From NCBI GenBank assembly GCA_014610835.1, contig QQXM01000019.1, positions 1 to 48,442 on the forward strand: DNA of 48,442 nt. The letters are read 5' to 3'. Below the pieces are notes generated by a model. It did no database searches. It saw only the letters and a list, made by a program, of their open reading frames with translations, and was not told the DNA's origin. The stretch comes from Erysipelotrichaceae bacterium 7770_A6. Lineage in GTDB: Bacteria > Bacillota_I > Bacilli_A > Erysipelotrichales > Erysipelotrichaceae. The translations under genes and the position numbers were made by a program. Of the stretch, positions 5,985 through 20,829 are shown one piece after another. Each line of letters opens with the position of its first letter. Position 1 is the stretch's first letter.

Positions 5985-6329
5985 TCAATCATAAATCAAT
6001 TCCACTTTCACAATCTCCTCTGCCTGTGCCTTGCAAGCGTTCATCTGCCGCACCCATTCCATTTGGTTTTCGGCTTTCAGTTGCTCGGTCACGCCGTTTT
6101 GCTCTGCCAGTGACCGCACGATCAGCTCCATGCGGTTTCGTGCTGTTTCGTCAATCTCGGCGCAATGCTCAAAGAGCTTGTCGGATAGCACCAGCTCATT
6201 GAACAGTATCGGACGGTGCATTTCCAGATACGCCTTGCGAAGTCTGCCGTAGTGTCCGAGGGGCTTGGTCTTGCGGATAATGATGTTTGGGATAAGATAA
6301 TCGCCGTTCTGTGTGTAAGTGATATTCAT
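5985..6329 (-). CDS. tnpV: Transposon-encoded protein TnpV
   Basis: 114 residues with the TnpV pattern: GDYLIPNIIIRKTKPLGHYG, then LRKAYLEMHRPILFNELVLS, and a C-terminal helix. TnpV proteins are found beside TnpX-type recombinases in Tn4451-like elements; their function is not established. The ATG overlaps the recombinase stop codon as ATGA, so it is the second gene of the recombination operon. Confidence 0.85.
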   Translation of the reverse strand: MNITYTQNGDYLIPNIIIRKTKPLGHYGRLRKAYLEMHRPILFNELVLSDKLFEHCAEIDETARNRMELIVRSLAEQNGVTEQLKAENQMEWVRQMNACKAQAEEIVKVELIYD

Positions 6330-8212
6330 GCTGTTTGTACTCCTTTCATCGGCTCTCTCTGCGGTAAACTGCTGACAGGGACGAACACGCCCTTTGCAAT
6401 GTCCTCCGCACGAATGGCGGCTTTCTTGGCTTCGATTTCTGCCTTTTTCCGCTTTTTGATTTTGTCCTCGTATCGCTTCTGTGCTCCGCTGGCTTTCCGC
6501 TTCAAGTAGTTCTGGTGGAGCCTGTCCTTGCGTTCCTCACGCTTGCGGATTTCCTCTAATTCCTCCGGGGTAAGCTCCGCTTCGCCAAACGCAGGGGGAA
6601 CGAAACGACCCACGAAATTGAAGTAAATCTCGACCTCCTGTGTGGTCTGAATACTGCCCTTGCGGTCACGCTCATGCACAAGGATTTTCTCAATAAACTC
6701 ATTGAGCATGGCAATCGTCAGCTTGTCGAAGTTCTCATACTTGTCAATCAGAGCGATAAAACGGTCAGCGTCCTTTTCGTGCTTCTCGTAGCTCTTGATA
6801 GCCTTTTCCAGAACAGAGATTTCAGCGGTAAGCTCGGTCTGCTCCTTTTCATATTGAGCGTCCAGAGTGGCATATCTGCTGTCAGACAGCTTTCCTAAAA
6901 TGTTGTCCTCATAGATTTTGCAGAGCAGGACTTCCAGCTCGGAAACTCTCTGCTTTGCGGTGGCAAGGCGTATCCGCTGTTTCTTGACCTCTGCCGTCTG
7001 CTGGCTGGACTGCGCTTCCTGCACCACTCGGACAAACTCGGCTCTGTCATGCTTCGCATACTCGGCAATAGCTTTGAGCATTTCGGAAACAAGGGACAGT
7101 ACCACATCTTCATTGATACGGTGCTGTGTCGTGCAGAGCTTTCCAACTGGGACTTTGCTGTATTGGGAACAGGTATATTGAGAAATACGCTTGCCGTTGT
7201 TGGTACGGTGGACATACATCTTGCCGCCGCAATCGGCACAATAAAGCAAGCCTGTGAGGGGAGCTGCTTCGCCCCAGCCGTCCGGGTAGCGTCTGACATT
7301 CCCACGGATTTTCTGCACAAGGTCAAAGGTCTGCTGGTCAATGATAGCTTCATGGGTATTCTCGAAAATTGTCCATTCGTCCTCCGGGACATAATGGCTT
7401 TTCTTGTCCTTGAAGTGCTTTCGGGTCTTGAAGTTGATGGTGTGTCCCAGATATTCACGCTTTTCAAGAATGTTGCAGATGGTGGAAGAACCCCAGCCGT
7501 ACACATCTTTGAAGGTCTTATTTTTGTTCACGCCCTCGCCGTGCCGGGCAAGGTAAGCGGACGGAATGAGGACTTTTTCTTCTTTCAGCTTGCTGGCGAT
7601 CTGATACGGACCGTAGCCGTCAATCGTCATGGCAAAGATGCGCTTGACCACCTCGGCGGCTTCGGGGTCAACCAACCATTGGTCTCTGGCTTCGTTCCAA
7701 AGATAGCCGTAAATGACCGTGCCTGTGAGGTGCTTGCCGGACTTGCCTTTGGACTGGAAAGTGGAACGGATTTTACGGCTGGTGTCTCTGGCGTAGTATT
7801 CGTTCATAATGTTGCGGAAAGGGGTAAAATCATCGTCCCCTCTGGCACTGTCCACGCCGTCATTGATGGCGATAAGGCGAACGCCACGCTGACGCAGGAT
7901 TTCCATAATCTGACCGACTTTCAGATAGTCACGACCCATGCGGCTCATGTCCTTGATGCACAAATACTCCACATTCCCGGCTTCCACTTCTTTCATCATT
8001 GCTAAAAATCCGGGACGGTCAAAGCAAGTACCACTAATGCCATCGTCCGTGAAATGGACAATGTTTGTAAAGCCCTGCCGTGCGGCGAACTCCTCCAACA
8101 TTGCCTTTTGATTGGATATGGAATTGCTCTCACGCTGTTGGTCATCATCTTTGCCAAAGTCATCACGGCTCAGTCGTTCGTACAGAGCTGTGATTTTCTC
8201 ATTTTTTCTCAT
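6326..8212 (-). CDS. Large serine recombinase (TnpX-like)
   Basis: 628 residues. The N-terminal resolvase domain has the catalytic serine context ALYERLSRDD, followed by SISNQKAMLEEFA and GISGTCFDRPGF. A recombinase domain follows (about 170-280), then a zinc ribbon with cysteines in LLYCADCGGKMY and the distal C of YTCSQYS, then a coiled coil (440-530). An in-frame start exists at 8338, but the ATG at 8212 has AGGAG 8 nt upstream and begins at the family N-terminus MRKNEKITALYERLSR, so I choose it. It catalyses excision and insertion without replication, usually at short target cores. It lies at the chromosomal edge, as expected. Confidence 0.94.
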   Translation of the reverse strand: MRKNEKITALYERLSRDDFGKDDDQQRESNSISNQKAMLEEFAARQGFTNIVHFTDDGISGTCFDRPGFLAMMKEVEAGNVEYLCIKDMSRMGRDYLKVGQIMEILRQRGVRLIAINDGVDSARGDDDFTPFRNIMNEYYARDTSRKIRSTFQSKGKSGKHLTGTVIYGYLWNEARDQWLVDPEAAEVVKRIFAMTIDGYGPYQIASKLKEEKVLIPSAYLARHGEGVNKNKTFKDVYGWGSSTICNILEKREYLGHTINFKTRKHFKDKKSHYVPEDEWTIFENTHEAIIDQQTFDLVQKIRGNVRRYPDGWGEAAPLTGLLYCADCGGKMYVHRTNNGKRISQYTCSQYSKVPVGKLCTTQHRINEDVVLSLVSEMLKAIAEYAKHDRAEFVRVVQEAQSSQQTAEVKKQRIRLATAKQRVSELEVLLCKIYEDNILGKLSDSRYATLDAQYEKEQTELTAEISVLEKAIKSYEKHEKDADRFIALIDKYENFDKLTIAMLNEFIEKILVHERDRKGSIQTTQEVEIYFNFVGRFVPPAFGEAELTPEELEEIRKREERKDRLHQNYLKRKASGAQKRYEDKIKKRKKAEIEAKKAAIRAEDIAKGVFVPVSSLPQREPMKGVQTA

Positions 8213-8239
8213 AACTTGCGCTCCTTTCTTCGGTTTTAG

Positions 8240-8299
8240 GTTGTGTGTTCTAAGAGACTTCCCAACCGCTTGATTAAGAAGTCTTTTAGAGCATACAAC
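8240..8299. repeat. Long inverted repeat at the element edge, upstream of the recombinase
   Basis: 22-nt arms (8240-8261 and 8278-8299) match at 19 of 22 positions, with a 16-nt centre. The three mismatches become G-U pairs if the plus strand is transcribed. It lies between the recombinase start and the chromosomal junction, so it may be a recombinase binding site or part of an att site. The recombinase promoter must overlap or adjoin it. Confidence 0.6.
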
Positions 8300-8327
8300 A
8301 CCAGAAACAACTTTATTTTTTTGTATC

Positions 8328-8350
8328 AAAAAGATCACTTCACAGTGATC
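8328..8350 (-). terminator. Terminator of the HAD phosphatase gene
   Basis: On the minus strand GATCACT-GTGA-AGTGATC is followed by TTTTTG, starting directly after the stop codon. Its intactness shows that the mobile element inserted just beyond it. Confidence 0.8.
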
Positions 8351-10226: not shown

Positions 10227-11843
10227 TTATACATTTCTTTGAATGATTTCTGTTATCAATGGTACGATTTGTTTTTTTCTAGAAATCAGTTTTTCCATAA
10301 ATACATAAGATGGAAAATCTTTTTTAAACCAGTTTGCTATTTTCCCTTCAAAATAGAAATAGGAACCATGATCCGCAACACTTGTAAATACAAGACAAAC
10401 AAGATCACAGCTTTTATCCATAACATATTTCTTCAATTCATCTTCAATAGATTCATGGATGCTTTCCATCCATGCACAAGATGGAATAACAACCTGTGCA
10501 ATGATAACCTGATATCCTTCCAGATCAAATGATTTCACATCATCTTTCAGATATTCTGAAACAGATCTTGCTTCATGATTTGCATTCATAAACAGAATGG
10601 AATATGCAAGTTCATCAACATTCAAGCCAGATACTTTTTCTAAGTATTCTGCCATTCGAAAATCTTTTCCTGTTGTTGTAGGAGATTGAAAATTCAATGT
10701 ATCTGAAATCATTGCACCTAACAATAAACCAGCGATGTTTTGGGGGATATCCACTTGATTTTCGATATATAGACCTGTGATGATCGTTGCAGTACTGCCA
10801 ACGATTTCATTACGAAACATAATTGGTTTTTTTGAATAGAAATCATAGATACGATGATGATCAACAACTTCTAGTACTTCTGCTTTTTCTATTGCAGGTA
10901 CGGATTGAGAAAATTCGTTATGATCCACTAAAATCAAAGATTTATTCTGATATATCATCGCATGGTCTTTTAAAATACAGGTAACAAGTTCTTTTGAAGC
11001 ATTTACAACAGGATATGCACGATATCTTTTACGACTCATTCGTTTTGCAACATCTTCTAAGAATTCCTCTTCTGAAAAGCACATTACATTTTTCTTCATG
11101 ACATAAGAAATTTCAGGTGCAAAGAATAAATAACGAGAAGTATTCATCGCACCAATTCCACTCAAAATAATTGGACAATGATATTTTTTCGCAGTATCTA
11201 TCACACTATCTTCAATTGCATCTGCCCATACAACAATCAACATTCCCGCACCTTTTTCAATCAGTGCCTTTTGTGATTGTGCATCATCTCCAATAATAAC
11301 AATGCGATCACTCACTTCATAATTGGATATTTCATGCTTTGAAAAAGCAACAATACTGACTTTTCCATTCAGATGCATCTTTTCATCTTCATAAATAATC
11401 TTTCCATCAATTGTTTTAGAAAGATTTTCTAAATTTACCTTTTTCAACAAATCAATTCCAAAAGCAGTATCCCCTAATCCAACATCTGCCAGATCATTTC
11501 TTGTAATAATACCTGCGACATGATGATTTGCATCTACAACGCATACAAATGGCTGTTCATGTGCTTTCATTAATTGAAGTGTTTCAAAGATTGTCGCTGC
11601 TGGATTGACACAAATTGGATGCTTCAAGGAAAGATCACTCAGTTTTACACGCGCATCTTCAAGTAATACAGGTGCATCAAAACCAAAACGATTTAATAAA
11701 TAATTTGTTTCACTATTACACTCTGATAATCGACAGGCAATTGCATTGTAACCAAGCTTCCGTTTCAAATATGCATACGCAATAGAAGATACAATAGAAT
11801 CTGTATCAGGATGTCTGTGTCCACAAATATAAATCTTATCCAT
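10227..11843 (-). CDS. ppaC: CBS-domain manganese-dependent inorganic pyrophosphatase (family II)
   Basis: 538 residues. It hydrolyses PPi to phosphate. The DHH catalytic domain is split: the N-terminal part has GHRHPDTDSI, and the later part has EVVDHHRIYDF and a C-terminal DHHA2 domain. Inserted between are two CBS domains (for example IITRNDLADV) flanking a DRTGG-like domain, the layout of nucleotide-regulated CBS-pyrophosphatases. The start at 11843 has AGGAG 7 nt upstream; the ATG at 11849 is too close. It is the last gene of a minus-strand operon, 16 nt after the GH3 gene. Confidence 0.92.
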   Translation of the reverse strand: MDKIYICGHRHPDTDSIVSSIAYAYLKRKLGYNAIACRLSECNSETNYLLNRFGFDAPVLLEDARVKLSDLSLKHPICVNPAATIFETLQLMKAHEQPFVCVVDANHHVAGIITRNDLADVGLGDTAFGIDLLKKVNLENLSKTIDGKIIYEDEKMHLNGKVSIVAFSKHEISNYEVSDRIVIIGDDAQSQKALIEKGAGMLIVVWADAIEDSVIDTAKKYHCPIILSGIGAMNTSRYLFFAPEISYVMKKNVMCFSEEEFLEDVAKRMSRKRYRAYPVVNASKELVTCILKDHAMIYQNKSLILVDHNEFSQSVPAIEKAEVLEVVDHHRIYDFYSKKPIMFRNEIVGSTATIITGLYIENQVDIPQNIAGLLLGAMISDTLNFQSPTTTGKDFRMAEYLEKVSGLNVDELAYSILFMNANHEARSVSEYLKDDVKSFDLEGYQVIIAQVVIPSCAWMESIHESIEDELKKYVMDKSCDLVCLVFTSVADHGSYFYFEGKIANWFKKDFPSYVFMEKLISRKKQIVPLITEIIQRNV

Positions 11844-11859
11844 GAGCATTCTCCTAGTA

Positions 11860-14190
11860 TTATTTCTTTTCTATGCTATTGAATAATTTCTTTAAAACAT
11901 CAAAATGATGTGAATTCATATAAGAAATTGCAAATGCAACTGTATTCCAGTTCATTCCAGATAACCATAGCATCTGTCTCAAACATGTTTCATCCAGCAT
12001 CGAAGCATCCATACCTTCCACAAATCCACGATCTGCAGCTTTTTTTGCGATACCATAGATAACTTTTCCAAGCTTCTTCTGCTGCAATTCAGCAATGGTC
12101 GTATCTGGAGTAAAAGGGTATGCCTGATGTGCTTTGGGCAAAGCATGATTTAAGATTGTTTTATATGATGCATCATCTACATGTAAAATGCCATCTTTGA
12201 GATAAAACATCTCCTTCAGCATTGTAGAATATGGCTGCATTGTTCCAGCAAGATAAACTTCCTGCTTCAATGATAAATGATCAATACATCTACCACACGA
12301 AATCACATACAAACCATCTTCTAATACATATTTCTTTTGCTTCACATCATAATATTCAAGATTCTTTAAAGGCGTATGCAGGATGATTTCTTTTTCTTCA
12401 TCTGGCTGCAGTGATACTTTTATAAAATCAATGAGTTCATGATCACAGCGTACAATCTGGCTGGATGGAAGAGATGCATAGATTTGAATGATTTCTTTTC
12501 CTTCTACTTCACCTGTATTTTTTATTGTTACATGGATACATAAATGATCTTTTTCTTTTTCAATGAACATTGAACGATATTGAAAAGATGTATAGCTCAA
12601 CCCATAACCAAAAGGATATTGTGGTTTCACATGAAAGGAATCATAGTAGCGATATCCTGTAAAAATACATTCTCTATATTGTGATTCATAAAGATCATTA
12701 TTAAACCACTGATACGATGGTACATCTTCTTCTCTTTTCGGCCACGTTTCAGCCAGTTTTCCACTTGGACATGTTTTTCCATATAAGATGGAAGCCGTAG
12801 CACTTCCACTTCTTGCTCCGGCAAGATATGTTAAAACAATTCCTTTAACATTCTTTTCAAATGGAAGCAGCACAACGGAACCACTCTGTAATACCACAAC
12901 AATCTCCTGATTAATAGAAACCATCTTGTTTAATAAAGCAATCTGATTTTCAGGAAGACATAAATTCTTTCGGTCATACCCTTCTGATTCTTTTCCTTCC
13001 ATCAACCCCATCACAAATATCACTTTATCATTTTCTTTTGCTTTTTCTAATGCAAGAGATTCTTTTCTCTCATCAATTTCATCCTTTTTGATAGAATATC
13101 CATCCACATAAGAAATATTGGAAGAATACTTTTTCAATGAAGAATACAGATTATCAATAATATCTGAATTAACAGAAGAACTGCCATTTCCTAAAGCTCT
13201 TGGATATTTTGCAAATCCACCAACAACTAAAATACGTTCTTCTTTTTGAAGTGGCAGAATATGTTCTTCATTTTTTAATAATACAATCGATTCTTCAGCA
13301 GCTTTTTTGGCGAATGCAAGATGTTGATTGCGGTCAAATGGCTGTTTTGTGTAGTTGCCACATCGCAAAGCAAGCAGTCTTATATATTCACTAGAACGAT
13401 GCAATGTTGATTCTTTCAATATTCCTTTTGCAATTGCATTCATGATCAAGTGGTCTGCACCAATATTGCCGCCTGGCATTTCTAGATTCAAACCAGCTTT
13501 CAATGAAGCAACAGGATCATACACTGCACCCCAGTCAGAAACAAATACACCATCAAAACCCCATTGTCTTGCTTCATCCATTAATGATTGATGTTCTGTA
13601 CAATGGATACCATTCAATTTGTTATAGGCATTCATGATTGTATATGGATGGGAAGCTTCAATCGCAATCTTGAACTGTTTTAAATAGATTTCATGCAGTG
13701 TTCTTTCATCCATCACACTGTCATTGATCATTCTTCCATATTCTCTATTGTTTGATGCAAAATGCTTTAAAGAACATCCAATACCATGCTTCTGTACACC
13801 ATTGATATATGCGCCTGCAAGTTCTCCAGAAAGCAGTGGATCTTCTGAAAAATACTCAAAATTTCTGCCTCCTGAAGGAGAACGTTTATGATTGACACCT
13901 GGCCCTAGAAGAATATCTGTACCTGTCGATATACATTCTTCTGCTAAGATTTCTCCATATTCTTCCAGTAATGTACGATCAAAACTACAGCCCATTAAAG
14001 CTGCAGTTGGATATGCAATCGCTGGTTTCGAAAGAGGAAAGCCTAACGCATCATTGAACTCAATGCGTAATCCATTTGGTCCATCATGCATTGTGATTTC
14101 TTTAAAATCAGTATTTGGAATATGATTGGTATGCCATTTATCTTTTCCTTGAAATAAACGTGCTTCCTCTTGTATAGACAATGATTTCAT
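11860..14190 (-). CDS. Glycoside hydrolase family 3, beta-glucosidase-like
   Basis: 776 residues without a signal peptide, so probably cytoplasmic. The GH3 N-terminal barrel contains KHFASNNREYGR and the nucleophile Asp219 in GVFVSDWGAV. The C-terminal sandwich (about 290-500) and fibronectin-III-like domain (YPFGYGLSYTSF, about 545-650) follow. The last 110 residues form an extra helical extension seen in some Firmicute enzymes. Its ATG overlaps the stop of the glycosyltransferase-MarR gene (ATGA). It probably cleaves a beta-linked glucoside or similar sugar after uptake; specificity is unknown. Confidence 0.92.
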   Translation of the reverse strand: MKSLSIQEEARLFQGKDKWHTNHIPNTDFKEITMHDGPNGLRIEFNDALGFPLSKPAIAYPTAALMGCSFDRTLLEEYGEILAEECISTGTDILLGPGVNHKRSPSGGRNFEYFSEDPLLSGELAGAYINGVQKHGIGCSLKHFASNNREYGRMINDSVMDERTLHEIYLKQFKIAIEASHPYTIMNAYNKLNGIHCTEHQSLMDEARQWGFDGVFVSDWGAVYDPVASLKAGLNLEMPGGNIGADHLIMNAIAKGILKESTLHRSSEYIRLLALRCGNYTKQPFDRNQHLAFAKKAAEESIVLLKNEEHILPLQKEERILVVGGFAKYPRALGNGSSSVNSDIIDNLYSSLKKYSSNISYVDGYSIKKDEIDERKESLALEKAKENDKVIFVMGLMEGKESEGYDRKNLCLPENQIALLNKMVSINQEIVVVLQSGSVVLLPFEKNVKGIVLTYLAGARSGSATASILYGKTCPSGKLAETWPKREEDVPSYQWFNNDLYESQYRECIFTGYRYYDSFHVKPQYPFGYGLSYTSFQYRSMFIEKEKDHLCIHVTIKNTGEVEGKEIIQIYASLPSSQIVRCDHELIDFIKVSLQPDEEKEIILHTPLKNLEYYDVKQKKYVLEDGLYVISCGRCIDHLSLKQEVYLAGTMQPYSTMLKEMFYLKDGILHVDDASYKTILNHALPKAHQAYPFTPDTTIAELQQKKLGKVIYGIAKKAADRGFVEGMDASMLDETCLRQMLWLSGMNWNTVAFAISYMNSHHFDVLKKLFNSIEKK

Positions 14191-15476
14191 ACAATCTTTC
14201 TCATATTTTGAATCATCTTTAATATCAATGCATTGAATTTCTGATTATCTTCTTCTGAAATATCTGCAAAAATAATATCTTCCAGATCATTTAATGCTTC
14301 TCTAATCTGTTCATAGATTGGATGGGCAGTATCTGCAAGAGAAACATGCGCTCTTCCTTCTCTAGCTTCCATTGTCACAATGCCCTTCATATTGAGCTTT
14401 GTAATAATAATAGAAACATTTAATGAAGAAATGCCCGTATAGTCAGAGATGTCATCAATTGTATTATCATGACCTGCATTTACCAAAGCAGCTAAAACTT
14501 TTATATCATTCAGATTCATCTCATTTTGAATCGCAATTGTATTCAATTTCTGTTCAAACGCTTTATTTACATAATATGCAAATGCAAGCATGGAATCTTT
14601 TTCACTTGTATATTTTGCCTGGATTCTTTCCTGACCAAGTTTTTTCACACCTGGCAAAACACCAATTGCAGAACCATCTTTTGCACCATCAATCAAGAAT
14701 GCCGCAATCAATAAACGATCTTTCCGGTACTGTTTCTCATCAAGGATATTCTTATAGAACTGGTTGTAGTATGCAAAAACAGTCGTTTTCATCTGATAGA
14801 TCTTTGATATCGACATTGCCTGAGATACAAGAGAACCTTCTGTTTTCACATAATAATACACAGGTGCTTTTAAAGGAATGATCTTACGTGTATGCAGATA
14901 ATATTCAAGATTAAAAATAAAATCTTCTGCGAATTTGCAGTTTTCCTGCATTCTTAAGTGAAATTTCTTTAAAATATCTGCACGATACAGCTTGTTCCAT
15001 AAAACCCCATAATAAAAATCTGCAGGAGACATCATCATAAACTGTGCATATTCCTGTAAAGTTAAAGCTTTTGTTGTATCAATACTTCCCTGGATGGCAA
15101 CATTTTCACCAACAACACGATAAAAATAGCCAATTGCAAGATCCGCTTCATTTTCTTCCATTGCACGCAGCAGAAGCTTTGTAGAATCCGTAGGAATCCA
15201 GTCATCAGCATCTAAAAACTGTACATATTCACCACTCACAACATCCAATGCTGTATTTCTAGCTTTTGATACACCACCATTTTCTTTATGAATGACCTTT
15301 AATCGACTGTCACTTTCAGCTAGACGATCCAGAATTTCACCAGATGCATCTTTTGAACCATCATCAACCGCAATACATTCAATATCCTGATATTCCTGAT
15401 CCAGGATACTGCGAATACATCTTTCAATTGCTTTTTCTGCATTATATACAGGAACAATCACACTTACTTTTGTCAT
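14187..15476 (-). CDS. Family 2 glycosyltransferase fused to a MarR-type winged-helix domain
   Basis: 429 residues in one open frame. Residues 1-270 are a GT-A glycosyltransferase: VSVIVPVYNAEKAI, the DDG at 38-40, and DAD at 89-91, which binds nucleotide-sugar and metal. There is no membrane segment. Residues about 293-427 look like a complete MarR domain: an N-terminal dimer helix, the helix-turn-helix TIDDISDYTGISSLNVSIII, the wing GIVTMEAREGRAHVSLAD, and C-terminal dimer helices. This pairing is unusual. An AGAGG precedes the ATG. The gene lies between a small membrane protein and the GH3 gene. Confidence 0.88.
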   Translation of the reverse strand: MTKVSVIVPVYNAEKAIERCIRSILDQEYQDIECIAVDDGSKDASGEILDRLAESDSRLKVIHKENGGVSKARNTALDVVSGEYVQFLDADDWIPTDSTKLLLRAMEENEADLAIGYFYRVVGENVAIQGSIDTTKALTLQEYAQFMMMSPADFYYGVLWNKLYRADILKKFHLRMQENCKFAEDFIFNLEYYLHTRKIIPLKAPVYYYVKTEGSLVSQAMSISKIYQMKTTVFAYYNQFYKNILDEKQYRKDRLLIAAFLIDGAKDGSAIGVLPGVKKLGQERIQAKYTSEKDSMLAFAYYVNKAFEQKLNTIAIQNEMNLNDIKVLAALVNAGHDNTIDDISDYTGISSLNVSIIITKLNMKGIVTMEAREGRAHVSLADTAHPIYEQIREALNDLEDIIFADISEEDNQKFNALILKMIQNMRKIV

Positions 15477-15494: not shown

Positions 15495-15764
15495 TTACTC
15501 TTTTGTTTCTTCCTGCTCTGTTTCTTCTTTTTTAGAAGTTAGAAATGGAGAAACGCCTGCACCAATACCAATACCGAAAGAAACCATATACGATAAACTT
15601 CTTGTAAAACAATACACAGCTGCTGCACCACCCGCAACAACGACAAGGAAAATCTTTCCATACAATGCTGCTGTCTTTACTTCACTGTTGTTATATTCAA
15701 AATAAAATGTTGTAAAAAGAAATCCCACAATAACACCAGTTATCATCATCAAAACTAAAATCAT
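15495..15764 (-). CDS. Small membrane protein, three membrane segments
   Basis: 89 residues. Hydrophobic stretches lie at about 2-22, 36-52 and 57-73, followed by an acidic tail rich in Glu and Lys (KKEETEQEETKE). I recognise no family. A GGAG lies 6 nt before the ATG. It is 3 nt downstream of the WG-repeat lipoprotein gene and 18 nt before the glycosyltransferase gene, so it is within one operon. It may anchor or assist an envelope process; nothing more can be said. Confidence 0.75.
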   Translation of the reverse strand: MILVLMMITGVIVGFLFTTFYFEYNNSEVKTAALYGKIFLVVVAGGAAAVYCFTRSLSYMVSFGIGIGAGVSPFLTSKKEETEQEETKE

Positions 15765-15767
15765 GTT

Positions 15768-17162
15768 TCACTCCTTATATGTCACCCATTCACTATTTCC
15801 CGCAATCCATTGCTTTTCACCAATGCGGTACCATGTATATCCATCTGCATCTTTCTTCTCAAATACTTCATACGTTTCGTTTTTTGTTGCGGTACCATTT
15901 GCTGGTTGAGAAGTACCTGCATCTGTTCGTATGTTTAAAGAATCAATATTGATTGTGACAGTACCAATCATATCTTTGCTTTCTTGTGTATCACTTGTTT
16001 CTTTTCTAGCTACAGGTGCATCACTGACAGTTTCCTGAAAGATCGATACATCTAGTTTCTTTTTAGAAGCAGCATCTTTTAAATTCAAGATGCCTGCTTT
16101 TTGATCTTTGATGATAAATGCTTTACCTTCATACAGGTTCGAAGCATCATCAAACATAAAATCAGTCACTTCTTCCCCTTTTTCATTAATATAAGCCCAT
16201 TTACCATCTGCATTCATCACAGGACAATATCCATCACTAAAATATCCAACGTCTTGATATTTCAATTCAGTAATCAGTTTCCCATGGTTTGCATCAAATA
16301 AGCCAATTTTATCAGAAGCATCCTTTTGATATACAGCTAAATATCCATTGACAAAGATACCACTTTCTCTATGGAGTACTTCATAGTCAACTTTACATAA
16401 CACTTTTCCTTGTCGATTCATAATGACTTTCTGTTCTATCACATTTGCACTGTTGACGATATTTGCTAAAAACAGATCAGAATGAATCTTTCTGTCATAC
16501 TTTTCAAATTTGTATCCATCTGTATCTTCACCATTCTTATTTTTAATATGTGATACAATGCCTAATTCTTTATTTTTAATTGCGATATCACCAAACTGCT
16601 GATTTCCATCATATGGATATGCAATAAAATCATTTTCATTCATTTCAGAAATAGAAGCAAAATCACCATGGAATACAACAGCTTTTTTCTTAGGAATACG
16701 CATTCCATACACTGTAGAAAAATAGTTATTTTCACTAGATGTTCTTGCATATCCAGCCATTATTCCATCTTCATGATATGTATTGGATACATTTTCATTC
16801 ACTGTATAGATTAAATTTCCATCATAGTCATAAATACTTTGTACACCATCTTTTTCCATGACAACTGCATTGTCTGTATATCCTGTATGCATCGATGTAT
16901 TTAAATATCCCGTCTGATTTGAAATCAATAATGCATTACTCCCATTCTGATGTAATTCATCATAAGAAAACGGTGTCAGTTCTTTGATTCTAGAAGCATC
17001 TATATCTGGTAATACATGCCATGTATTTGCATTTGTTAACGATGTATTTTCTTTTGAAATTTCTTGCTTACTGCTACATCCAAAGAGTAAACAAGCTACG
17101 ACATTCAGTCCAATCAACACTGTTTTTTTCATACGTAAATTTTCTACCATTCTTCTTATCAT
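15768..17162 (-). CDS. WG-repeat lipoprotein with C-terminal SH3 domain
   Basis: 464 residues. A signal peptide ends at a lipobox (LLFGC), so the mature protein begins with a lipidated cysteine. The middle carries several WG-type beta repeats (GLFDANHGKLI, KWAYINEKGEEV, KAGILNLKDA). The end (about 395-464) is a bacterial SH3-like domain with NIRTDAGTS and WIAGNSEWV. The start is uncertain: ATGs at 17162, 17150 and 17132 all lack a clear ribosome binding site, and the last gives the most normal signal peptide. It is the first gene of a five-gene operon. Such proteins are cell-surface binders of unknown ligand. Confidence 0.85.
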   Translation of the reverse strand: MIRRMVENLRMKKTVLIGLNVVACLLFGCSSKQEISKENTSLTNANTWHVLPDIDASRIKELTPFSYDELHQNGSNALLISNQTGYLNTSMHTGYTDNAVVMEKDGVQSIYDYDGNLIYTVNENVSNTYHEDGIMAGYARTSSENNYFSTVYGMRIPKKKAVVFHGDFASISEMNENDFIAYPYDGNQQFGDIAIKNKELGIVSHIKNKNGEDTDGYKFEKYDRKIHSDLFLANIVNSANVIEQKVIMNRQGKVLCKVDYEVLHRESGIFVNGYLAVYQKDASDKIGLFDANHGKLITELKYQDVGYFSDGYCPVMNADGKWAYINEKGEEVTDFMFDDASNLYEGKAFIIKDQKAGILNLKDAASKKKLDVSIFQETVSDAPVARKETSDTQESKDMIGTVTINIDSLNIRTDAGTSQPANGTATKNETYEVFEKKDADGYTWYRIGEKQWIAGNSEWVTYKE

Positions 17163-17341
17163 TTCAAGTGGGTGCGTGCTCCCTCCATGAAAAACTAAAT
17201 ATTCATACCATGATTCTTATTAACATGTTATATTATGAATAGAAAAATCTTCATTAAAGTTTTCTTAAAATTGCTTTTCAGTATTGCAGTACTACAATTG
17301 TATCCCTGTAAATGATTCTTAAGAGAAAGTTGAGAGAAAAT

Positions 17342-17758: not shown

Positions 17759-17786
17759 TTGAAAGCACTACGAATCATTGTATAAT
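17759..17786 (+). promoter_or_regulatory. Promoter for the Mrr-type gene, predicted leaderless transcript
   Basis: TTGAAA (17759-17764), a 16-bp spacer and a perfect TATAAT (17781-17786). The ATG at 17796 is 9 nt beyond the -10 box, so transcription should begin at or within about 3 nt of it. Confidence 0.65.
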
Positions 17787-17795
17787 ACTTGCGAT

Positions 17796-18767
17796 ATGAA
17801 TGGTTATGAGTACGAACAATACTGTGCAGAGTGGCTAAAGAAACACGGATTCCATCATGTACATGTAACAAAGGCAAGTAATGATCAAGGTATTGATATC
17901 TTAGCAAGCAAGAAGCAGAAACGTTATGGATTTCAGTGTAAATACTATGAATCTCCTGTTGGAAATGATGCTGTTCAACAGGCTTTTAGCGGTGCAGCTT
18001 TCTATAATTGTGATTGTTGTGGTGTTATCACTAATCAGACATTCACAAAAAGTGCCATTGCTTTAGCAGGAGAAACAGATGTCATATTGATTGATTCTGT
18101 ATGTGTAAAACAGACTTCTTTTCTTACAATTGTTTTTCTAGTGTGGATGATAATACTATGTGGTATTGGGTGCAGTTTGCTTGTTTATCAAAGTACAACA
18201 CTACACTACACAGACGAAACGATCCTTGCTTCGGTATTTATGATTCTTTCCTCTTTGCTTGCGATATTTTCAAGTAAAAGTGATATCTGCTTATGTTGTG
18301 GATGTTTTCTTTCTTTTTGTTGTGTACTGCTATCCTTCTTTTATTCTTTTCAAAATCCAGTGTTTTTCAATGTTTTACACATCAACCTATTTTTATTTCA
18401 GTTCATTTTAGATATCAAAGTCATCCTTCTGCTACGAAAGAAAAACAAGATCTATGAAGCTGCGCTCAAAGAAGAAATGGAAAGTTCCTTTCACGAAGAC
18501 ACAAGCCAAAAAGGAAAAGAAATCGCAAAAACACTCGCAGAAGAAATCCAGCAGACAATCACGTTTGATTCCTACGAAATCAAAAATGGAAATATCGCAT
18601 ATCTTTTTAAGACAACAAAAGATATTTCTGAGGATTTCGCATTACTCGAATACACATTTCGCCAATATGCAAACTATACAAACAGTCAGGAAACATATAC
18701 ATTTTCACAAAAAAGTCCAAAATCATTTTATTTAACAGTACGAAAATCAAGAAATCCACAAAATTAA
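17796..18767 (+). CDS. Mrr-like restriction endonuclease domain protein with membrane segments
   Basis: 323 residues. Residues about 2-100 are a PD-(D/E)XK Mrr_cat-like domain: YEQYCAEWLKKHGFHHVHV, the acidic GIDILA and the catalytic QCKYY. Four hydrophobic stretches follow at about 110-225, then a soluble C-terminal domain of about 100 residues. Membrane-linked Mrr-like proteins are candidate defence or DNA-quality nucleases. The start is ATG 17796; a TTG at 17778 lies upstream of the predicted transcription start. There is no ribosome binding site. Monocistronic. Confidence 0.8.
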   Translation: MNGYEYEQYCAEWLKKHGFHHVHVTKASNDQGIDILASKKQKRYGFQCKYYESPVGNDAVQQAFSGAAFYNCDCCGVITNQTFTKSAIALAGETDVILIDSVCVKQTSFLTIVFLVWMIILCGIGCSLLVYQSTTLHYTDETILASVFMILSSLLAIFSSKSDICLCCGCFLSFCCVLLSFFYSFQNPVFFNVLHINLFLFQFILDIKVILLLRKKNKIYEAALKEEMESSFHEDTSQKGKEIAKTLAEEIQQTITFDSYEIKNGNIAYLFKTTKDISEDFALLEYTFRQYANYTNSQETYTFSQKSPKSFYLTVRKSRNPQN

Positions 18768-18786: not shown

Positions 18787-20829
18787 ATGTTAATTAAAAA
18801 ATATTTTTCTCAAATCACTTCTATTATGATTACATGTATCCTGTTAATCTACGCATTCATGCATAAATCAATATTCTTACTCAATGTAGAATATCCATAT
18901 GTGTGGATAGGTACAGAAATATTATTACTAGCGGGAATTCTTTTCTTTCCTTTCTTAAAGGAAAAGAAAAATAAATACACCACAACAGCCATTTTCTTAT
19001 TCGCACCACTTCTCATGATCATTGCGGTAGAAATGTTAAATGGAAACATGTTATGGGATATTGATATGTTTGGAAACGTATGTATGAACTATTTCATCGC
19101 ATTTCTATTGTATCTGTTGATCTATGCCGCAAGTGGAAGTACAAAATGTTCTATTATTTCAATTTCTATCCTGCTGGAAGTGTTTGGTATCGCAAATTAC
19201 TATGTCAAACTCTATAAAGGGTCTCCACTATTGCCTTGGGATTTAAGTGCGATTACAACTGCCGCAAATGTATCGGATGCATTTTCATTCAATATCACGA
19301 AAGAAGTCATTGTTTCATTCACAATCGTTGTCTTTCTGATCAAGGCAACTTCTGTCTGTATCAAAAATACGAAAACAAAAACATATCGTATCGTAAGAAG
19401 CGTTTGTGCAATTCTTTTCTCCCTTGTCTTCTCCATCTTCTATTTCACAGATATTGTCGCAGAAACATTCCAGGCAACGCCTGATTTCTTCAATCAGACA
19501 AGAGGATATGAAGCAAAAGGTGCCATTGCTGAATTTCTAGTCAATACAAAATACATTCATTTATCTCAACCAGAAGATTATGATCCATCAACCTTAGAAA
19601 AAAACATCAAGTCTTCTACTGAAGAGGATGCACCAACAATATTAGAAACTGCATTAAAAAATAAAAACAAAGAAGTTGATTCAACAGCTTCCACAGTGAC
19701 AAATCCAAATATCATCACCATCATGAATGAAAGTTTTTCTGATTTAAGTGTCATTGGTGATTTTGATGCAACGGTTGACTATATGCCATTCATTAACAGT
19801 CTCAAAGACAGTGAAAACTGCATCAGTGGATACAGCTATGTATCAACAATTGGTACAGGTACAAGTAATACAGAATATGAATTTTTAACAGGTAATTCCA
19901 TGGCGTTCTTGCCAATTGGTTCAAATGCATATCAATTATATGTAAATAATCCATTACCTTCCCTTGTTTCTTCTTTGCAAAGTGAAGGATATACTGCTTC
20001 AGCTTTTCATCCATACTATAAAGAAAACTGGAATCGTATCAATGTATATCAGAATATGGGATTTTCTTCCTATACAGGATATGGAGATTACACAGATTTT
20101 GAAAAACTCAGATTATTTGTATCCGATGAAAGTGATTTCCAGCATGTAGAAGAATTATATGAGAACCGTGATACAACAAAACCATTCTTCTTGTTTAATG
20201 TAACGATGCAGAACCATAGTTCCTATGATCAGGATACAGGTTTGTGGTATCCACAGGTAAAGCTTGCCAACATGAAAGGTACATATCCTGAAACAGAACA
20301 ATATCTTTCTTTGATCAAAGAAACAGATGATGCATTCAGTAATCTTGTATCTTACTTCAATCAAGTCAAAGAGCCTACGATCATTCTTATGTATGGAGAT
20401 CATCAGCCATATATTGAAGATACATTCTATGAAGAAGTTATGGGTAAAAAACTATCCGAACTGACAGACGAAGAGCAACAGAAACGCTACATCACAAGAT
20501 TTGTGTTATGGGCAAACTATGATATTCCTGAAGGATGGATTGATGAAATTTCCGTCAATTATCTTTCTGTCCTTCTACAACAAGTCGCAAACAATCCATT
20601 GACAGAGTATCAGAAATATTTAAATACTTTATATACAAAAGTACCTGTTGTTACGATGATGGGATGTAGAGACTGGAATGGCAATTACTTTAAATATAAT
20701 GATGATACTAAATACAGACAATTGTTAAATTACTACAGTCAGGCAAGCTATAATAACGTCATTGATGAAGTCAATCGCATTCATTCATTATTTTATCTGC
20801 CAGAAAAGAAAGAAAATGAATCCAGCTGA
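18787..20829 (+). CDS. LtaS-like sulfatase-fold membrane enzyme
   Basis: 680 residues. Five membrane segments fill residues 1-210, followed by a linker and an outside alkaline-phosphatase-superfamily domain. Motifs: ITIMNESFSDLSV (metal-site Glu), TGTSNTEYEFL (nucleophile threonine context, compare T300 of LtaS), AFHPYYKENWNR and MYGDHQPYIED (metal-binding Asp/His). LtaS-type enzymes polymerise glycerol-phosphate from phosphatidylglycerol; relatives transfer phospho-groups to other envelope polymers. I cannot separate these two. It probably has a leaderless transcript. Confidence 0.88.
   Translation: MLIKKYFSQITSIMITCILLIYAFMHKSIFLLNVEYPYVWIGTEILLLAGILFFPFLKEKKNKYTTTAIFLFAPLLMIIAVEMLNGNMLWDIDMFGNVCMNYFIAFLLYLLIYAASGSTKCSIISISILLEVFGIANYYVKLYKGSPLLPWDLSAITTAANVSDAFSFNITKEVIVSFTIVVFLIKATSVCIKNTKTKTYRIVRSVCAILFSLVFSIFYFTDIVAETFQATPDFFNQTRGYEAKGAIAEFLVNTKYIHLSQPEDYDPSTLEKNIKSSTEEDAPTILETALKNKNKEVDSTASTVTNPNIITIMNESFSDLSVIGDFDATVDYMPFINSLKDSENCISGYSYVSTIGTGTSNTEYEFLTGNSMAFLPIGSNAYQLYVNNPLPSLVSSLQSEGYTASAFHPYYKENWNRINVYQNMGFSSYTGYGDYTDFEKLRLFVSDESDFQHVEELYENRDTTKPFFLFNVTMQNHSSYDQDTGLWYPQVKLANMKGTYPETEQYLSLIKETDDAFSNLVSYFNQVKEPTIILMYGDHQPYIEDTFYEEVMGKKLSELTDEEQQKRYITRFVLWANYDIPEGWIDEISVNYLSVLLQQVANNPLTEYQKYLNTLYTKVPVVTMMGCRDWNGNYFKYNDDTKYRQLLNYYSQASYNNVIDEVNRIHSLFYLPEKKENESS

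Follow-up and report, generated by a model that had tools for sequence, protein, structure and literature searches.

A GT2 glycosyltransferase fused to a MarR-like domain with altered DNA-contact residues in one bacterial family

Gene organization of the locus

The window analysed here is a stretch of DNA of 48,442 nucleotides. On its minus strand, positions 14187-15476 contain a single uninterrupted ATG-to-stop frame of 429 codons. The encoded protein (429 aa) consists of a GT2 glycosyltransferase, a linker and a MarR-fold domain, as indicated by the frame, Pfam matches, aligned relatives and a survey of the family. The fusion gene overlaps by 4 nt a gene encoding a GH3 glycoside hydrolase (11860-14190, minus strand, identified by Pfam), and the overlap makes it likely that the two genes are translationally coupled. 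Immediately upstream of the fusion, a frame at 15495-15764 (minus strand) encodes a small hydrophobic protein of 89 residues and occupies the place taken by a GtrA-like gene in about half of the relatives. This protein was considered as a conserved partner and discarded, as it has no homologue in the genus.

Apparently, the first gene of the operon is a WG-repeat lipoprotein-like gene with an SH3_3 match (15768-17162, minus strand). A search for operators in the likely promoter region, 17163-17311, returned weak and imperfect palindromes only. At the other end, directly downstream of the GH3 gene, positions 10227-11849 (minus strand) encode a DHH/DHHA2 protein with CBS and DRTGG domains, an arrangement found in CBS-containing inorganic pyrophosphatases. 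About 3.3 kb from the fusion, and on the opposite strand, lies a gene with weak similarity to lipoteichoic acid synthase; its product, a membrane protein with a sulfatase fold (18787-20829, plus strand), matches at 71 bits, far under the equivalog cut-off. Together with the GtrA-like and GH3 genes found beside many of the fusions, this gene points loosely to envelope glycans. Two further genes were recorded in the region. One, starting with TTG (17778-18767, plus strand), encodes an Mrr-type restriction endonuclease domain and, after it, hydrophobic segments; the other (6326-8338, minus strand) encodes a large serine recombinase with Resolvase, Recombinase, zinc ribbon and DUF4368 domains, and a mobile element may be near.

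Glycosyltransferase domain and linker

The GT2 catalytic domain spans residues 1-220 (14817-15476). The Glycos_transf_2 profile (PF00535) matches residues 5-157 with an E value of 7e-40 and 137.1 bits, against a curated cut-off of 23.3, and a profile of the glycosyltransferase part matches the solved GT2 enzymes 5hea and 3bcv (E 1e-41 to 2e-40). The DDG motif at residues 38-40 (15357-15365), which we take to be involved in sugar-nucleotide binding, corresponds to a [DN]DGS pattern present in 52/52 fusions. The DAD (DxD) motif at residues 89-91 (15204-15212) is invariant in 20 aligned fusion members, in which D89, D91, D92 and W93 never vary. The same holds for the acidic pair E184-D185 (14922-14927), presumably the candidate catalytic base. 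With this profile match and both the nucleotide-binding and acidic-pair motifs in place, the protein is assigned to the GT2 family. Its motifs are, in our judgement, closer to those of GT2 enzymes with glycan acceptors than to those of polyprenyl-phosphate-dependent ones.

The catalytic domain is followed by a family-specific linker (residues 221-290, 14607-14816), conserved in the alignments and featuring a P-G-T-K-K-L-G-E-E-like stretch. Hydropathy analysis revealed no transmembrane segment in the fusion protein, which is accordingly predicted to be soluble and cytosolic in both of its parts, as originally proposed.

Fold of the C-terminal domain

Residues 292-429 (14190-14603) make up the MarR-fold domain, delimited by profile and structure comparison and consisting of helices 1-6 and a two-stranded wing. 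Scored alone, the C-terminal part reaches 20.3 bits with TrmB, 18.9 with MarR_2 and 18.3 with HTH_27, all values under the curated Pfam cut-offs (25.6 bits for TrmB and 27 bits for MarR_2), and as a single sequence it matches MarR-family structures weakly. In contrast, a profile built from the tails of 20 species matches solved MarR/SlyA structures, with E values down to 5e-7 and most of the fold covered. The MarR assignment thus falls below threshold for the window sequence by itself and is recovered from the family.

In an AlphaFold2 model built from the single sequence of the last 141 residues (289-429; pLDDT 76), helices and strands follow the order of MarR proteins. Both structure comparisons of this model were dominated by MarR-family chains, the best VIA match having a Z up to 13.1 over 135 residues (rmsd 3.0). 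When the whole protein was predicted from its single sequence, the regions other than the tail were modelled poorly (pLDDT 44). According to model and profile, arm helices 1, 5 and 6 and the winged helix resemble those of solved MarR structures, and the tail is thus modelled as a whole MarR fold that includes the arm helices making MarR dimers, a role described for these helices in the NMB1585 study (PMC2650471). The alignment places the MarR recognition helix at residues 350-363 (SSLNVSIIITKLNM; 14388-14429), and alignment and DSSP analysis of the model place a shortened wing hairpin at residues 367-380 (VTMEAREGRAHVSL; 14337-14378). The profile match, the order of elements in the model and the structure comparisons therefore bear out the domain reading of the original prediction, in which one frame encodes a GT2 domain with DDG and DAD motifs and then a full MarR-like winged helix.

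Distribution of the fusion

Orthologues were sought with a profile, A3, derived from the central glycosyltransferase region and the linker and specific to the orthologous group. When run on 272 genomes of the family, A3 separates cleanly 80 genomes matching at E ~2e-50 or better from others matching at ~1e-15 to 1e-17 or weaker; the weaker matches are other GT2 enzymes only, plus one 44-residue stub at a contig end. The survey called for by the original prediction thus yields, from sampled and mostly draft genomes, about 81 orthologous genes of the same architecture in 80 species and 8 genera of one family. The fusion is found in most species of the genus of the window (50/70) and in 30 species of seven further genera, one species having two copies. 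Full-length frames measure at least 425 aa. Five of the 81 are shorter: four run to a contig end (L018, L122, L124 and L125), and the fifth, from genome G089, starts at base 1 of its contig.

Neither an unfused orthologue nor a pair of separate genes was detected by A3 in the 272 family genomes, and A3 found no further members in a 392-genome sample of the phylum. A second profile, A2, retrieved stand-alone MarRs and no fusion from a 395-genome sample of the class; neither sample contained homologues split into two genes. No fusion occurs among the sister-family matches listed from the samples, which are frames of less than 200 aa, nor on viral contigs, where four GT2-only loci were identified. 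Because the architecture is present in 80 family genomes, has no unfused orthologue and is absent beyond the family in the samples, the fusion is judged to be both obligatory and old, within a single family. A tree of the MarR domains sets the fused copies together on one side of a branch (SH-aLRT 74); a single origin of the fused domain agrees with this tree and is unproven by it.

Relatives align straight through the junction at position ~14620. A frameshift or missed stop at this point, which had been raised as a concern, is ruled out by the conservation of the junction among aligned members and 80 genomes. Although the source genome is a draft of 233 contigs, the recurrence of the junction in those members and genomes, one of which (G061) is a single contig, leaves a negligible chance that an assembly or gene-calling artefact joined two genes.

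In the same sampled, mostly draft genomes, the genes flanking the fusion are less stable. A GtrA-like membrane gene (PF04138) lies immediately upstream in 20/39 fusion loci with enough upstream sequence, in several genera. Genome G160, which has two fusion copies (contigs C9 and C58; loci L075 and L060), carries a GtrA-like gene upstream of both. The fusion of the window has no such neighbour, and the two GtrA genes of its own genome lie elsewhere. Neighbour genes differ between lineages while the fusion stays, so that a membrane partner does not appear to be general. The GH3 hydrolase gene is found directly downstream, and often overlapping, in 23/50 loci, the window included, and this frequency excludes it as an obligatory partner.

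Conservation and DNA-contact residues of the tail

In two close species pairs, dN/dS values are 0.05 and 0.12 for the tail and 0.07 and 0.09 for the glycosyltransferase part, which indicates that purifying selection acts on the tail. Over larger distances between species, the tail diverges far more than the glycosyltransferase part and, except for a few positions, is weakly conserved.

The comparison covered 53 fused domains and, from the same order, 24 stand-alone MarRs picked by similarity to the fused profile; residues are numbered as in the window protein. The wing arginine has been described as a generic minor-groove contact of MarR proteins (PMC2650471). Lysine or arginine occupies wing position 374 in 24/24 stand-alone domains and in 0/53 fused ones. 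Similarly, recognition-helix position 351 is basic (K/H/R) in 23/24 stand-alone domains vs 2/53 fused domains, and position 355 is S/T in 20/24 vs 5/53; as the aligned rows are related by descent, these counts are of non-independent events. The wing is about 2.4 residues shorter in fused domains and contains on average 1.5 rather than 3.6 K+R residues (p 4e-10, a value that is only indicative because the rows are related). Mean pI decreases from 7.7 in stand-alone to 5.6 in fused domains, and is 4.8 in the window tail. A short gap in the wing alignment lowers the confidence in single wing positions relative to that in the general loss of basic residues; in a looser test, any K/R at 373-376 is found in 20/53 fused and 24/24 stand-alone domains. 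A new residue, Asp397 in helix 5 (14286-14288), has in turn become fixed in the fused family (52/53 fused vs 2/24 stand-alone domains).

Given the losses at 374, 351 and 355, the shorter wing and the lower pI, the family as a whole appears to have lost the usual MarR DNA-binding determinants while keeping the arm. By sequence, the fusion protein shares the fold of MarR transcription factors and lacks their features at the positions tested. The suggestion that the enzyme reports to DNA consequently finds no support at the family level; the second of the refutations that the original prediction named for itself applies to the family as a whole. The window protein belongs to the less altered members. 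It has no basic residue at 351, and the net charge of its helix-turn-helix region is -2, yet it retains S355, K360 and K364, together with wing residues R372 and R375. As S355, R372 and R375 are retained, weak DNA binding by this member is conceivable, though unlikely.

Possible roles of the tail

The reading that we favour, with a probability of about 0.57, is that of a cytosolic GT2 enzyme with a MarR-derived tail that serves as a dimerization or docking module; the enzyme perhaps belongs to an envelope or glycolipid pathway. Since the tail is without the residues that MarR regulators use for DNA, its probable role is in pairing or docking the enzyme, not in gene control. The functional steps that go further than fold, conservation and residue loss are ones that we infer. 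The C-terminal third would be a domesticated MarR domain of the glycosyltransferase and would keep the old MarR dimer interface. This interface, together with the now non-basic face of the recognition helix, would allow the enzyme to dimerize and/or to dock to a membrane partner, a candidate being the GtrA-like protein whose gene immediately precedes about half of the fusions. The acceptor of the sugar transferred by the enzyme would then be lipid-linked or part of the cell envelope, and a role as transcription factor would be missing in most species. A more elaborate version, in which a glycosyltransferase captured a MarR repressor that lost DNA binding and became an obligatory adaptor linking the soluble GT2 enzyme with a GtrA-like partner in the membrane, seems rather unlikely.

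The tail could also act as an allosteric sensor that does not bind DNA; the pocket that classically lies between the arm and the winged helix would take up a small ligand and so tune the glycosyltransferase. The whole fold is kept despite the lost DNA-contact residues, the dN/dS of the tail is low, and the new, near-invariant Asp397 lies presumably near the region where MarR ligands generally bind. However, the sequence of the tail is weakly conserved among species, a few positions excepted, and we regard a sensor as quite unlikely.

Regulation of its own operon by a DNA-binding tail, with the substrate state of the glycosyltransferase as the switch, is improbable. The fold is a true MarR fold, the window copy has the recognition-helix serine and two wing arginines, and another MarR-enzyme fusion of the same genus has its MarR signature intact (MarR-NrdG2 radical SAM, L120). 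In contrast, the fused domain is acidic, has a shortened wing and never features a basic residue at 374, a position basic in every stand-alone domain compared. In addition, the palindromes at 17163-17311 are weak and imperfect, and a fusion that stays while its neighbours vary by lineage is ill-suited to be an operon-specific autoregulator.

Among GT2 enzymes that also have a function in gene control, the nearest precedent found is, by analogy, GmaR of Listeria monocytogenes, which acts as a GT2 enzyme and as the antirepressor of MogR. Like the fusion protein, GmaR has an N-terminal GT2 domain, matched by our profile A1 (22ao, E 9e-8), and a C-terminal part of different function. If the tail formed non-DNA-binding heterodimers with a true MarR repressor, the outcome would resemble that of GmaR-MogR, and stand-alone MarRs also occur in many genomes with the fusion. 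However, the C-terminal part of GmaR is composed of TPR, linker and antirepressor regions and does not adopt a MarR fold (PMC9638930), and no conserved MarR gene was noticed beside the fusion; an anti-repressor is very improbable.

While a plain domain search suggests a regulator-enzyme fusion, the comparison indicates a conserved case of the reverse: the fold of a transcription factor is maintained for its shape, and the residues for binding DNA are decaying. The approximately 80 species, found at different stages, provide a usable series for tracing the loss of DNA binding by a winged helix. Members that are less altered, that of the window among them, may still have remnants of this binding, and if so the transition could be followed experimentally.

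Relation to known systems

No description of a GT-MarR fusion was found in the literature searched, and GT2-MarR is, within that literature, a domain architecture without description, although the kind of enzyme is known. TarS and TarP, soluble GT2 enzymes of wall teichoic acid synthesis with C-terminal accessory domains, oligomerize through their C-terminal parts. They share with the window protein the GT2 domain, solved members being matched by sequence, but the accessory domain of the window protein is a MarR fold.

Unlike in the GtrA/GtcA systems, the glycosyltransferase domain of the fusion does not, as we read its motifs, seem to be of the polyprenyl-phosphate type. These systems of linked transmembrane glycosylation, and GacI/GacJ, for which a cytoplasmic GT-A enzyme and a separate membrane protein have been proposed (PMC8035078), resemble the fusion loci in that the gene for a GT-A enzyme is accompanied by one for a small membrane protein, a GtrA-like one beside about half of the fusions. 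They differ from the window, which has no GtrA neighbour.

MarR, SlyA and MepR transcription factors have the fold and helix order of the fusion tail; the tail differs in being acidic, fused to an enzyme and devoid of the basic wing and recognition-helix residues. A MarR domain and an enzyme are likewise joined in the MarR-NrdG2 protein from the same genus (381 aa; L120:565-1710, corresponding to G073:C279), but there the MarR domain is N-terminal, scores above the Pfam cut-offs and has an intact basic wing with KDHR, and precedes an NrdG2-type radical SAM activase. Genomes G026 and G086 contain frames of 387-391 aa that match similarly. ROK-type repressors had been suspected behind the 387-aa frames; the one that was read proved to be a MarR-NrdG2 fusion.
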